Below are positions 9,841 to 13,477 of a DNA stretch of 64,000 nt, one piece after another. Each line of letters starts with the position of its first letter. Positions within the stretch are counted from its first letter, which is position 1. The stretch is taken from the NCBI RefSeq assembly GCF_014836755.1, contig NZ_JACSQF010000019.1:1-64000 (forward strand), read 5' to 3'. The notes under the pieces were generated by a model. That model did no database searches and was not told the origin of the DNA. It worked only from the letters and a program-made list of their open reading frames with translations. This stretch comes from Oerskovia merdavium. Its GTDB lineage: Bacteria; Actinomycetota; Actinomycetes; Actinomycetales; Cellulomonadaceae. The translations under genes and the position numbers were made by a program.

Positions 9841-10554
9841 CTAGACCGGGGCGGGATCCGTGGCGAGAGGCGCGGGCACGACCCACACGCGCGACGCCGC
9901 AGGCAGGCCCAGGTGGACCGGGCTCGCGTCGCTCCCCCACGTGATCGCCATGGTCCCCGCGTACTCGCGTCGCTCGTGCACGCGCACCTCGGCGTCGAGC
10001 CCCAGGCCCAGCTCGGCCAGGTAGCGCAGCACGTCCGGGTCCGAGTCCGAGATCCGCGCCACGACCGCGCACGCCCCCGGGTCCAGCTCGGACAGCCGGA
10101 CCGCCGCGGGACGCGGCACGAACCCGGACGCGGTGGGGATAGGGTCGCCGTGCGGGTCCCGCGTGGGGTGGCCGAGCAGGGCGTCGATACGGTCGAGCAT
10201 GAGGTCCGAGACCGCGTGCTCGAGCACCTCGGCCTCGTCGTGGACCTCGTCCCACGAGTAGCCCAGCTCGGAGACCAGGTACGTCTCGAGGATCCGGTGC
10301 CGACGGACCATCGCGACCGCGTGCGAACGCCCGAGGTCCGTGAGCTCGATCGCACCGTAGCGCGCGTGCACCAGCAGGCCCTGCGAGGACAGGCGGCGCA
10401 CGGTCTCCGAGACGGTCGAGGCCCCGACGCCGAGCCGGTCCGCGAGGAGCTTGGTGGTCACCGGCTCGTCGGACCACTCCTGCGCGGACCACACCACCTT
10501 GAGGTAGTCCTGGGCGACGGAGGTCAGGTCGAGGGGATGGTCCACGGCGACCAC
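9841..10554 (-). CDS. DtxR/MntR family metal-dependent transcriptional repressor
   Basis: A 237-residue metalloregulator. The N-terminal winged helix (about 10-70) includes ADRLGVGASTVSETVRRLS; the metal-binding and dimerisation segment follows with HRILETYLV and EVLEHAVSD; a C-terminal SH3/FeoA-like domain ends the protein. It is the last gene behind the SBP-ATPase-permease metal importer, 98 bp from the permease. Members bound to Mn2+ or Fe2+ repress uptake genes; the 9-bp inverted repeat over the start of the substrate-binding gene is the obvious target. Because the importer has a Glu metal ligand of the manganese type, an MntR-like role is favoured over iron sensing. Confidence 0.9.
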   Translation of the reverse strand: MVAVDHPLDLTSVAQDYLKVVWSAQEWSDEPVTTKLLADRLGVGASTVSETVRRLSSQGLLVHARYGAIELTDLGRSHAVAMVRRHRILETYLVSELGYSWDEVHDEAEVLEHAVSDLMLDRIDALLGHPTRDPHGDPIPTASGFVPRPAAVRLSELDPGACAVVARISDSDPDVLRYLAELGLGLDAEVRVHERREYAGTMAITWGSDASPVHLGLPAASRVWVVPAPLATDPAPV

Positions 10555-10569
10555 TCTATTTCACGGGCC

Positions 10570-10596
10570 TCCCCCGGCCCCGGAAGGACCGGGGGA
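10570..10596 (-). terminator. Hairpin between permease gene and DtxR gene
   Basis: Arms TCCCCCGG (10570-10577) and CCGGGGGA (10589-10596) lie between the end of the metal permease and the regulator start. It may end part of the importer transcript or attenuate the regulator gene. Confidence 0.45.
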
Positions 10597-10652
10597 CGGA
10601 CCGGTGCCTGCTCGCTGCGCGACGCCCGGCCCGCCCGCCTCGCCACCACGCG

Positions 10653-11555
10653 TCACCGGGCGACCAGCTCCACGGGCTCGCGCTCCGCCGTCGGGCCCGC
10701 CGGGGGCACCGCACGCGGACGGCGCGCCAGGTGCACGACGTACGCGACCGCGAACACGACCCCCTGGGCCACGACGATCGTCGCGGCGCTCGCGGTGTCG
10801 AGGTAGTAGCTCGCGTAGATGCCCACGACCGCGCACCCGACCGCGATCACGGGGGCGAGCACGAGCATCCGGGACATGCGGTCGACCAGGAGATAGGCCG
10901 TCGCGCCCGGCGTGATGACCAGGGCCACCACGAGCACGACCCCGACCGCCTGGAGCGCGACCACCACGGTCAGCGCGAGGGACCCCAGGAGCAGCGCGGA
11001 CAGCCGGCGCGGCGAGATCCCGACGGCGTGCGCGTGCACCGGGTCGAACGCGAACAGCGTGAGGTCGCGCCGCTTGAGCACGAGCACGACGGTCGTCAGC
11101 GCACCCAGCACCACGACCTGCCACAGGTCCGTGTCGGTGATGCCCAGCATGTTGCCGAACAGGATGTGCCCCAGGTCGATCTGGCTCGGCGTGACCGAGA
11201 TGAGCACGATCCCGATCGCGAACAGCGTCGTGAAGACCACGCCGATCGCGGCGTCCTCCTTGAGCCTGCTCGTGTCGCGCACCGTCCCGATCAGCGCGAC
11301 CGCCCCGACCCCGAACACGAGCGCCCCGATCGCGAACGGCACGCCGACCACGTACGACAGGACCACGCCCGGCAGCACCGCGTGCGAGACCGCGTCACCC
11401 AGCAGCGACCAGCCGATCATGATGAGCCAGCAGCTCAGGAGCGCGCACACGATGCTCGCGACGACCGCGACGAGGAGCGCGCGCTGGACGAACTCGTACC
11501 CGAGCGGCGCGGCGAGCCAGTCCCCCGCGCTCGCGAGGAGGTCGACGGGGTTCAA
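10653..11555 (-). CDS. Metal ABC transporter permease (ABC-3 / MntC-ZnuB type)
   Basis: Integral membrane subunit of the metal importer, 300 residues with about eight to nine hydrophobic helices and the family signature DAVSHAVLPGVVLSYVVG. The C-terminal tail (about 25 residues) is hydrophilic. The start is TTG at 11555, whose last base pairs share the ATPase stop (TTGA overlap), with GAAGGAG upstream inside the ATPase gene; a longer reading extends into the ATPase gene in another frame and is not real. Translation is therefore coupled to the ATPase. Same operon as the substrate-binding protein and probably the DtxR-type regulator. Confidence 0.93.
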   Translation of the reverse strand: MNPVDLLASAGDWLAAPLGYEFVQRALLVAVVASIVCALLSCWLIMIGWSLLGDAVSHAVLPGVVLSYVVGVPFAIGALVFGVGAVALIGTVRDTSRLKEDAAIGVVFTTLFAIGIVLISVTPSQIDLGHILFGNMLGITDTDLWQVVVLGALTTVVLVLKRRDLTLFAFDPVHAHAVGISPRRLSALLLGSLALTVVVALQAVGVVLVVALVITPGATAYLLVDRMSRMLVLAPVIAVGCAVVGIYASYYLDTASAATIVVAQGVVFAVAYVVHLARRPRAVPPAGPTAEREPVELVAR

Positions 11556-12451
11556 CGGGCTGCTCCTTCGGACGGGGCGTCGGCGGCCGGGGCCAGGTCC
11601 GCGGCACCGGCGCTGTGGGTGCCGCCGTCGGCGCCCTCGCGGCGCGCCGACGCGAGCGGGTCGATCCCGAACGTGCGGGCAAGGTTCTCGGGGCGCAGCA
11701 CCACGTCGGGCGGCCCGGTCATGATGATGCGGCGCTGGAGCAGGATCGCGTCGTCCACGAGGTCCGGCAGGGACGCGAGGTCGTGCGTCGAGACGAGCAC
11801 GGCGCACCCCGCGGCGGCGAGGCTCCGCAGCACCGAGGTGATCTGGGCCTCCGACACCTTGTCGACCCCGGCGAAGGGCTCGTCGAGCAGCAGGAGCCGC
11901 GCGCCCTGCGCGATCGCACGTGCCACGAAGACACGCTTGCGCTGCCCGCCGGACAACCGCCCGATCTGCCGGTGCGCGAGGTCGGCGAGCCCCACGCGGT
12001 CCAGGGCGTCGGCCACGGCGCGGCGGTCCTCGGCGCGCGCTCGGCGCGTGGGCCCCAGGCCCCCGTAGCGCCCCATGGTCACGACGTCTCGCACGTCGAC
12101 CGGGAACGCCCAGTCGACGTCCTCCGACTGCGGGACGTACCCCACGAGCCCTTCCTTGCGGGCCGCGTCGGCGTCCCGGCCGTAGATCCGGACGTCGCCC
12201 ACCTGGGTGACCCCGTTGCCGCGCGTCATACCCATGACGGACCGGAAGAGCGTCGACTTCCCCGAGCCGTTGGCCCCGATGAGCCCCGTCACGGCGCCCG
12301 GGGCGAGCGAGAGCGCGACGTCCTCGAGGGCCAGCGTCTCGCGGTAGCGGACCGTGAGCCCGCGGACCGCGAGGGCAGCGGGCTCGGCAGACCCGGCACT
12401 CCCCGCCGACGGACCCGCCGCGGTCACCCCTGCGGGCGATGCCCCGCTCAC
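11552..12451 (-). CDS. Metal ABC transporter ATP-binding protein
   Basis: Energises the metal importer from the cytoplasmic side, 299 residues. It has Walker A GANGSGKST (about 60-68), the ABC signature LSGGQRKRV, Walker B LLLLDEPFAGVD and the switch histidine in STHD. The first 27 residues and the last 30 are Ala/Gly-rich and outside the fold. The GTG start overlaps the stop of the substrate-binding gene by 4 nt (GTGA), and its own stop overlaps the permease start, so the three genes are translationally coupled. Confidence 0.95.
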   Translation of the reverse strand: MSGASPAGVTAAGPSAGSAGSAEPAALAVRGLTVRYRETLALEDVALSLAPGAVTGLIGANGSGKSTLFRSVMGMTRGNGVTQVGDVRIYGRDADAARKEGLVGYVPQSEDVDWAFPVDVRDVVTMGRYGGLGPTRRARAEDRRAVADALDRVGLADLAHRQIGRLSGGQRKRVFVARAIAQGARLLLLDEPFAGVDKVSEAQITSVLRSLAAAGCAVLVSTHDLASLPDLVDDAILLQRRIIMTGPPDVVLRPENLARTFGIDPLASARREGADGGTHSAGAADLAPAADAPSEGAAR

Positions 12452-13416
12452 GACCCACCCCGCAGGCCCTCGCTGATGATGCGCGCGTCGTAGGTGAGCA
12501 GGTCGAGGTAGGTGGGGACGTCGCCGTCGGGCTGCGAGAGGGAGTCGACGTAGAGCGTGCCCGCGTACGTCGCGCCCGTCTCCGCGGCGACCTGGCGCTG
12601 CGCGGAGTCCGAGACGGTCGTCTCGCAGAACACCGCGCGCACGCCGTTGTCACGTACGTGGTCGATCACGCCCGCGACCTGCTGGGGCGTGCCCTGCTGG
12701 TCGGCGTTGACGGGCCACAGGAACTTCTCGTCGAGCCCGACGTCCCGCGCCAGGTAGGAGAACGCCCCCTCGCACGTCACGAGCACGCGCGACCCGGCGG
12801 GCACCTGCTCGACCTCGGCGGCCAGCTCGCGCCCCACGGCCTCGATGCGGTCGGCGTAGTCGGCCGCGTTCGCGCGGTAGTCCGCAGCGTGCGCCGGGTC
12901 CGCAGCAGCGAAGGCCTCACCGATGTTGCGCGCGTAGACCGCGCCGTTGACGGGCGACATCCAGGCGTGGGGGTTGGGCCGCCCGTCGTACGCGCCCGAG
13001 GCGATCGAGAGGACCTCGACGCCGTCCGAGACCGTGACGTGCGGCGCGTCGAGGCGTGCGACGAAGGGCTCGAACCACTTCTCGAGCCCGAGCCCGTTGT
13101 CGAGGACCAGGTCCGCGCTCGCGGCGCGCCGCAGGTCCGCGGGGGTGGGCTCGTAACCGTGGATCTCGGCTCCGACCTTGGTGAGCGAGGAGACCTCGAC
13201 GTGCTCTCCCCCGACCTCGCGGGCCATGTCGGCCAGGACGGTGAAGGTCGTCAGCACCTCGAGGCGCCCGACGGCGTCGCTCGCCCCCGCACCCTCGGCC
13301 GAGGTTCCGGCGGGCTCGCCCTGCGCGGCGTCGACCGTGCACGCAGCGGCGAGGAGCAGGGCCGCCAGGCCCCCGAGGAGACCTTTCACCCCTGTGCGAA
13401 GTTCAAAGTTCGGCAT
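12448..13416 (-). CDS. Metal ABC transporter substrate-binding lipoprotein, manganese type
   Basis: Extracytoplasmic metal-binding protein of cluster A-I, 322 residues from the ATG at 13416. The N-terminus is a lipoprotein signal: basic start, hydrophobic core LLGGLAALLLAAAC with the lipidated Cys at residue 27. Expected metal ligands are His in EIHGYEPT, His in NPHAWMSP, Glu in TCEGAFSY and Asp in YVDSLS. A Glu in the third position is the PsaA/MntC (Mn) pattern, whereas zinc proteins have His there. The start was chosen because the signal peptide begins here; an ATG 16 codons upstream would add a hydrophilic leader. The start codon lies inside the operator 13405-13426. Confidence 0.93.
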   Translation of the reverse strand: MPNFELRTGVKGLLGGLAALLLAAACTVDAAQGEPAGTSAEGAGASDAVGRLEVLTTFTVLADMAREVGGEHVEVSSLTKVGAEIHGYEPTPADLRRAASADLVLDNGLGLEKWFEPFVARLDAPHVTVSDGVEVLSIASGAYDGRPNPHAWMSPVNGAVYARNIGEAFAAADPAHAADYRANAADYADRIEAVGRELAAEVEQVPAGSRVLVTCEGAFSYLARDVGLDEKFLWPVNADQQGTPQQVAGVIDHVRDNGVRAVFCETTVSDSAQRQVAAETGATYAGTLYVDSLSQPDGDVPTYLDLLTYDARIISEGLRGGS

Positions 13417-13426
13417 ACCGAACTTT
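13405..13426. promoter_or_regulatory. Perfect inverted repeat, candidate MntR/DtxR-type operator
   Basis: AAAGTTCGG and CCGAACTTT flank the 4-nt spacer CATA, giving a perfect palindrome with 9-bp arms. It covers the start codon of the substrate-binding gene and overlaps a TAAAGT -10 box (13427-13422, minus strand) 5 nt before the ATG. The regulator encoded at the end of the same operon is the likely binder. This is inferred from position and symmetry. Confidence 0.7.
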
Positions 13427-13477
13427 AACCACGAACGAGGCGTGACGTCGAGTCCCCGAGGCACGGGACGAGGAGGC

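Follow-up and report, generated by a model that had tools for sequence, protein, structure and literature searches.

The 22-bp palindrome at positions 13405-13426 of the Oerskovia merdavium DNA analyzed here (the window, i.e. all 64,000 nucleotides of the stretch from contig NZ_JACSQF010000019.1) is very probably the operator of a Mn(II)-dependent repressor of the MntR type, encoded by the fourth gene of the operon that it precedes, and built into a leaderless promoter. Judged from the sequence, the same few base pairs appear to combine a promoter, an off-switch, the start of the transcript, and the first codons. We observed the anatomy of the site, its recurrence, and its association with regulator and manganese-importer families, and from these we infer binding, the metal sensed, the 5′ end of the transcript, and the blocking mechanism.

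The four genes of the operon lie on the minus strand in the order metal-binding lipoprotein, ATPase, ABC-3 permease, and, after ~98 bp, DtxR-family regulator. The first (12448-13416) encodes a MntA/SitA-like lipoprotein of a Mn/Fe-type ABC importer, which matched Pfam ZnuA (PF01297) at 1.8e-79 and had EfaA of the Mn/Fe type as its best NCBIfam match (5.6e-58, under the curated cut-off); it is 95% identical to its counterpart in Oerskovia enterophila and 87% identical to that in O. rustica. The best NCBIfam match of the importer ATPase (11552-12451) is PRK15056, manganese/iron type (1.9e-74, under the cut-off), and the permease gene (10653-11555), whose TTG start overlaps the ATPase stop, encodes an ABC-3 family protein (Pfam ABC-3, 5e-74). 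The fourth gene (9841-10554, with GTG starts at 10554 or 10545) encodes a MntR-like member of the DtxR/MntR family with winged-helix, metal/dimerization, and FeoA domains (Pfam PF01325, 8e-18; PF02742, 2.2e-31; FeoA, 6.1e-14). Against NCBIfam models, the lipoprotein reached at best 196.5 bits with the manganese binding-protein models (curated cut-off 485), its match being to the broad family PF01297, and the regulator reached 162.9 bits with the MntR equivalog NF047407 (cut-off 350) and is thus not filed as that equivalog. As these cut-offs were not reached, the metal assignment rests on homology, ligand residues, and NRAMP neighbors in relatives. A search of the O. merdavium genome for an NRAMP gene gave no match. 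Further, we note a GC-rich inverted stretch at 10545-10600 on the minus strand and a TAGAGT (10558-10553) 7 nt before the GTG at 10545; judged by these elements, the regulator gene may have a leaderless promoter of its own, without an operator.

The palindrome is a perfect inverted repeat, AAAGTTCGG-CATA-CCGAACTTT, with two 9-nt arms that are 100% complementary and 4 nt between them (9-4-9), and its core is TTCGG-N4-CCGAA. On the coding (minus) strand the central 4 bp read TATG, which places the ATG of the lipoprotein gene (13416-13414) at the exact center of the repeat. A preliminary description of this DNA had proposed a manganese-importer operon that includes a DtxR-type gene, with a 9-bp inverted repeat around the ATG of the importer and a -10 box overlapping one arm. 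The binding-protein, ATPase, permease, and DtxR-type genes are all as claimed, and the repeat around the ATG was borne out, with perfect arms and the ATG exactly central; of the coordinates then given (13405-13427), the start was correct and the end was not, as the repeat stops one base earlier, at 13426. The -10-like sequence, TTAAAG (13428-13423) or TAAAGT (13427-13422) on the minus strand, indeed overlaps the upstream arm. A putative -35-like TCGACG (13446-13451, minus strand) is weak; a T is found at -35 in 58% of the 77 loci in relatives that have a centered start codon (see below). A strict σ70 consensus scan of the window returned no promoter at the palindrome, so that the promoter rests on position and on comparative data. 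When up to three mismatches were allowed, the 22-bp palindrome occurred once in the window, compared with no occurrence in 100 shuffles, and in one place only in the 4.49-Mb genome. The relaxed core TTCGGN4CCGAA was found in two places in this genome, as was the reversed control pattern, and the second relaxed core (C46:59625) falls within the reading frame of an ABC ATPase of the oligopeptide type. The single palindrome site thus leaves one visible target for the regulator in this genome.

We propose that the upstream arm bears the -10 element, that the center would be the transcription start, at the A of the ATG, and that the downstream arm encodes the start of the protein; the first codons of the lipoprotein gene, M-P-N-F, are the downstream arm of the predicted operator. 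When Mn(II) is ample, a metal-loaded MntR dimer on the two TTCGG half-sites would block RNA polymerase over the region from -10 to +1, and the importer would be off; under Mn(II) shortage the dimer would leave, and the transcript would begin at the AUG. Such a transcript would carry one arm only and hence could form no hairpin. Room for a start codon inside the operator would come from the way in which a DtxR-family dimer binds, with contacts to the five-base half-sites and tolerance of base changes in the intervening 4 bp.

We defined relatives as genomes with the importer binding protein at E ≤ 1e-45, in overlapping draws by genus (7/7 positive), family (63/121), order (77/297), and class (20/216), which gave 145 positive genomes in all. 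Start regions were read in 142 of these (G015, G668, and G665 were left out, as was a second copy in G096), a sample that leans to the own family (62/142). An in-frame ATG or GTG was exactly centered in the core TTnGGNNNNCCnAA, matched in at least seven of its eight letters, at 77 of the 142 loci, this one included, compared with a mean of 0.14 and a maximum of 2 in 200 shuffles. With the strict core (all eight letters) the count was 59/142, compared with 0 in the shuffles; the other 18 of the 77 matched only seven letters. The centered codon was ATG in 52 cases and GTG in 25, and all seven members of the own genus have a centered ATG. The 77 loci span 28 of the 53 genera and 10 family codes, of which f46 is probably chance: the only two f46 rows, L157 and L192, are identical upstream, have AGAAGG before the start, and look like chance matches. 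By family, the start was centered at 43/62 loci of the own family and at all loci of f21 (9/9), f48 (9/9), and f5 (4/4), compared with none in f52 (0/9), f24 (0/5), and f8 (0/2). An RTG at the core center shared an open frame with the gene in 79 cases and did not in 6, which is predicted by a real start codon and not by a mere base preference of the repressor.

In a separate set of 80 loci, which was found partly with the N-terminal peptide of the query itself and so is not unbiased, the arrangement was seen at 43, a full core elsewhere at 11, and a seven-letter core or none at 26, six of these being cyanobacteria. The 43 include loci from Agromyces, Microbacterium, Demequina, Cellulosimicrobium, Arthrobacter, Rhodococcus, Nocardiopsis, Cryobacterium, and Georgenia. 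Further, a search of 200 genomes of the family with the whole 22-bp palindrome (up to three mismatches) gave matches in 124, compared with 13 for the reversed control. Of eight loci taken from this pattern search, L083 and L088 have no importer beside the site, L088 adjoining a membrane-protein frame, and both were left out as probable chance matches. Plasmid homologues, as a source of annotated starts, were left out, their best matches being distant (56-61% identity). Overall, the centered-start arrangement is common to many related soil bacteria. At two loci, L092 and L144, there are two cores, 24 and 27 bp apart, each centered on an in-frame start codon, and, going by these sequences, two leaderless starts seem possible there.

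The window shows what is expected of a leaderless gene, a -10-like element ~6-7 nt upstream of the start codon and no Shine-Dalgarno sequence. Among the 77 center-start loci, TANNNT ending 5-7 nt before the start was present at 47 (shifted control mean 0.47, maximum 3), the strict hexamer being missing from the right place at the other 30, and Shine-Dalgarno 4-mers were found at 12, compared with a mean of 15.6 at shifted places further upstream, and hence are not enriched. For leaderless transcripts, figures of 20% of genes in Corynebacterium diphtheriae and ~33% of transcripts in C. glutamicum are given in PMC5784534. At the center-start loci, another in-frame ATG or GTG lies at most 57 nt downstream in 42/77 and an in-frame start lies upstream in 44/77, so that the start is often unsure from the sequence alone. 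This bears on the window, where a GTG at 13389-13387, in frame and 27 nt downstream of the ATG, would also give a signal peptide. The operator could thus be real and translation could begin at this GTG, behind a 27-nt leader, with the centered ATG being incidental in the genus, a reading that we consider improbable. The GTG precedes a lipoprotein-like signal peptide and is found in five of the seven genus members, this one included; however, the other two have GTC at this place, whereas the ATG is present in all seven. Further, 35 of the 77 center-start loci have no other in-frame ATG or GTG within 57 nt downstream, and the AGGGG in the window abuts the GTG directly, too close to act as a Shine-Dalgarno sequence.

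The identity of the repressor was approached through its distribution and its residues. In the class sample, where the importer and regulator searches (216 genomes each) were taken as the same draw, a regulator homologue (E ≤ 1e-40) was found in 19 of the 20 genomes that have the importer, compared with 28 of the 196 that do not. The one importer-positive genome without it, G246, has no core and offers no more than a weaker DtxR-family match (37% identity, 1.9e-22). The best PDB match of the window regulator is 5zr4/5zr6 (E 1e-83), titled metal-dependent transcriptional regulator, which we take to be M. tuberculosis MntR. An alignment of the window regulator with the IdeR-like protein of its own genome (C11:506201-506605) shows Met10 replaced by Asp and Cys102 by Glu, i.e. 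acidic ligands of the manganese type. In 41 orthologues from the fetched loci, the Met10 place is occupied by Asp in 25, Asn in 15, and a gap in 1, and the Cys102 place by Glu in 40 and Asp in 1; the roles of these metal ligand residues in DtxR-family regulators are described in PMC6860424 and PMC9936198. IdeR Pro39 is replaced by Ser in the window regulator and in 41/41 orthologues. A core of at least seven letters accompanies Glu at IdeR position 43 in 26/26 loci and other residues in 6/15, counts that come from related rows and so do not amount to a probability. The own genome also has a weak third DtxR-like match (G000:C22:127253-127666, E 4.7e-4) with one stop.

For the Saccharopolyspora IdeR, TTAGGNNNNCCTAA was proposed as a one-dimer site, IdeR residues 37 and 39 touch the third base of the half-site (contacts that the authors hold not to be decisive), and changing all CCTAA to CCGAA abolished specific binding in vitro (PMC8464063). 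Neither the iron box TTAGGTTAGSCTAACCTAA nor the half-box TTAGGNNNNCCTAA, according to the consensus in that source, is present at the window core, TTCGG-N4-CCGAA. The window operator has this one-dimer spacing with CCGAA in both half-sites; together with the distribution of the regulator and its residues, Ser for Pro39 among them, this points to MntR rather than IdeR. That the operator is nevertheless bound by the iron regulator IdeR is, in our estimate, slightly less probable again than a start at the GTG: the one-dimer spacing is the same as that of TTAGGNNNNCCTAA (PMC8464063), an IdeR-like protein is encoded in the own genome, and TTAGG half-sites occur in some relatives, but both half-sites of the window carry the very change that abolished Saccharopolyspora IdeR binding in vitro, the MntR-like gene sits in the operon and co-occurs with the core, and G246 has a DtxR-family match of IdeR-like distance yet no core. 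The recurrence of the core at the manganese importers of relatives is in keeping with an operator of MntR.

The same core is found at a second type of manganese transporter gene. Four loci (L238-L241; genomes G190, G120, G020, and G114) were taken from genus g21, another genus of the same family in which the palindrome is common, and in 4/4 an NRAMP (mntH-type) gene lies directly downstream of the core. The best ABC importer matches in these genomes are distant or missing (E 3.5e-24, 3.6e-21, none, and none), and each genome encodes a homologue of the window regulator, 60-70% identical, and a second, weaker DtxR-family match. At three of the four loci the central 4 bp are free of in-frame start codons; the fourth, L238, has an in-frame ATG in them, shifted one base from the center and followed by a GGAGG and a GTG. 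We note that G190 has two core copies 33 bp apart, with the in-frame ATG one base off the center of one copy. Comparison of the importer and NRAMP loci indicates that the constant is an operator at the promoter and that the start codon is centered mainly where the transcript looks leaderless.

These data also bear on the least probable of the alternatives, that the palindrome acts as RNA, translation being regulated by a 9-bp hairpin that holds the AUG in its loop on a transcript begun upstream: an RNA from 13432 does fold at -16.7 kcal/mol (z -3.47; 0/200 shuffles as stable) with the AUG locked in the hairpin loop, but we rejected hairpin control as the main mechanism on folding and on pair counts across relatives, as the -10 position sets the start at the AUG, an RNA from the AUG is without unusual structure (z +0.42), all nine pairs are kept in only 18/77 center-start loci, at most three contiguous pairs outward from the loop remain in 24/77 with the half-sites persisting (TTAGG opposite TTCGG breaks the stem), and mntH-type genes are preceded by this core too. 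Since stems are broken while half-sites persist, the palindrome is more likely kept as DNA half-sites. The metal-repressor operator predicted in the preliminary description thus finds support in the operon's own MntR-like gene, in regulator co-occurrence, in the presence of the core upstream of NRAMP genes, and in the one-dimer spacing of the DtxR family (PMC8464063); the leaderless transcript predicted alongside it is supported by the -10 position, the lack of Shine-Dalgarno enrichment, and the reading frame. As for the further suggestion that the palindrome would serve as a seed for finding the regulon, it led to no other site in the own genome, although in relatives the motif leads to mntH-type genes.

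The arrangement was absent from 65 of the 142 loci, of which 18 have no core of at least seven letters near a start and 47 have one, counts that admit seven-letter cores, some of which will be chance. In 24 of the 65, a leaderless-type -10 precedes the start and the core lies elsewhere, in 16 of them with its center between -35 and -10, 20-27 bp ahead of the start; in 23, a core is near the start without a leaderless-type -10. The full eight-letter core was present somewhere in the scanned stretch at 35/65. Where a locus has two cores, they are 22-24 bp apart in 13/18 pairs. Two loci among the genes with GGAGG, L193 and L213, have the core over a -10-like element and the start codon further on. 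On a FastTree tree of 135 binding proteins from both locus sets, the center-start state changes at least seven times on starred branches, and parsimony on the same tree gives 23 changes, compared with a shuffled mean of 42. Other palindromes (AATGTTTGACCCCTCAAACATT-like; AAAGTTAA-N6-TTAACTTT-like) were seen at importer genes of Arthrobacter/Glutamicibacter (L027, L049, L061, L065, and L080) and Brevibacterium (L023, L030, L042, and L059). At IdeR position 43, the regulators of the Arthrobacter/Glutamicibacter loci carry Gly, which, at the level of sequence, suggests co-divergence of operator and regulator in this group.

Taken jointly, these observations incline us, with some reserve, to the view that actinobacteria repeatedly build one 22-bp element in which the -10 box, the MntR operator, the transcription start, the start codon, and the M-P-(N/K) coding sequence would coincide, an overlap that a DtxR-family dimer would permit by not reading the central 4 bp. 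A slot ~22 bp away could also be used by the operator, and the slot would have been switched many times; at centered sites the repressor would then set the first residues of the lipoprotein, and transcription of half the palindrome would keep the leaderless AUG free. With this element, the operator of MntR-type regulators can be predicted in many actinobacteria, and the presence of a start codon within a repressor site has a structural explanation; a one-base code is also predicted, at the third base of the half-site, that would keep manganese and iron regulators apart. For gene-start calling, a palindrome in frame at such an importer gene implies that the likely start codon is its center. Given how common leaderless genes are in the phylum, the extent to which operators double as first codons becomes a testable question.

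λ cI and tetR of Tn1721 are leaderless genes whose promoters likewise have repressor operators; to our knowledge, the start codon is not the center of the operator in either. The ingredients of the arrangement described here, MntR-run importers and leaderless Zur units, are already known, and its exact superposition on a start codon was not found in the literature searched: among the open-licence papers listed, we found no report of an operator centered on a start codon, nor of this motif for MntR, which the primary MntR papers (Pandey 2015, Peng 2021) may describe. PMC13001254 lists mntA-D of C. diphtheriae as regulated by MntR, with dip0615 (mntA) serving as a negative control that DtxR did not bind; the MntR regulon of M. 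tuberculosis includes mntH and an ABC importer, according to a review (PMC5855569). These actinobacterial systems (C. diphtheriae mntABCD; M. tuberculosis MntR, Rv2788) likewise place a manganese-type importer under a manganese sensor of the DtxR family, a likeness of importer and regulator type, whereas here there is one permease gene and the operator is centered on the start codon. The one-dimer site of IdeR/DtxR, TTAGGNNNNCCTAA (PMC8464063), has the same 5-4-5 geometry and belongs to the same regulator family; however, the half-sites of the window are changed at the third base (CCGAA), and the site is not the 19-bp two-dimer box. The Zur-controlled leaderless units cg0042 and cg2911 of C. 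glutamicum, for which the 5′ end was reported at the A of the ATG, are likewise metal-repressed through a repressor site over the core promoter, but there the repressor is Zur, of the Fur family, the metal is zinc, and the sites are reported over the -35 or the whole -10/-35 region, whereas in the window the palindrome is centered on the start codon (PMC2823685 for the C. glutamicum genes).
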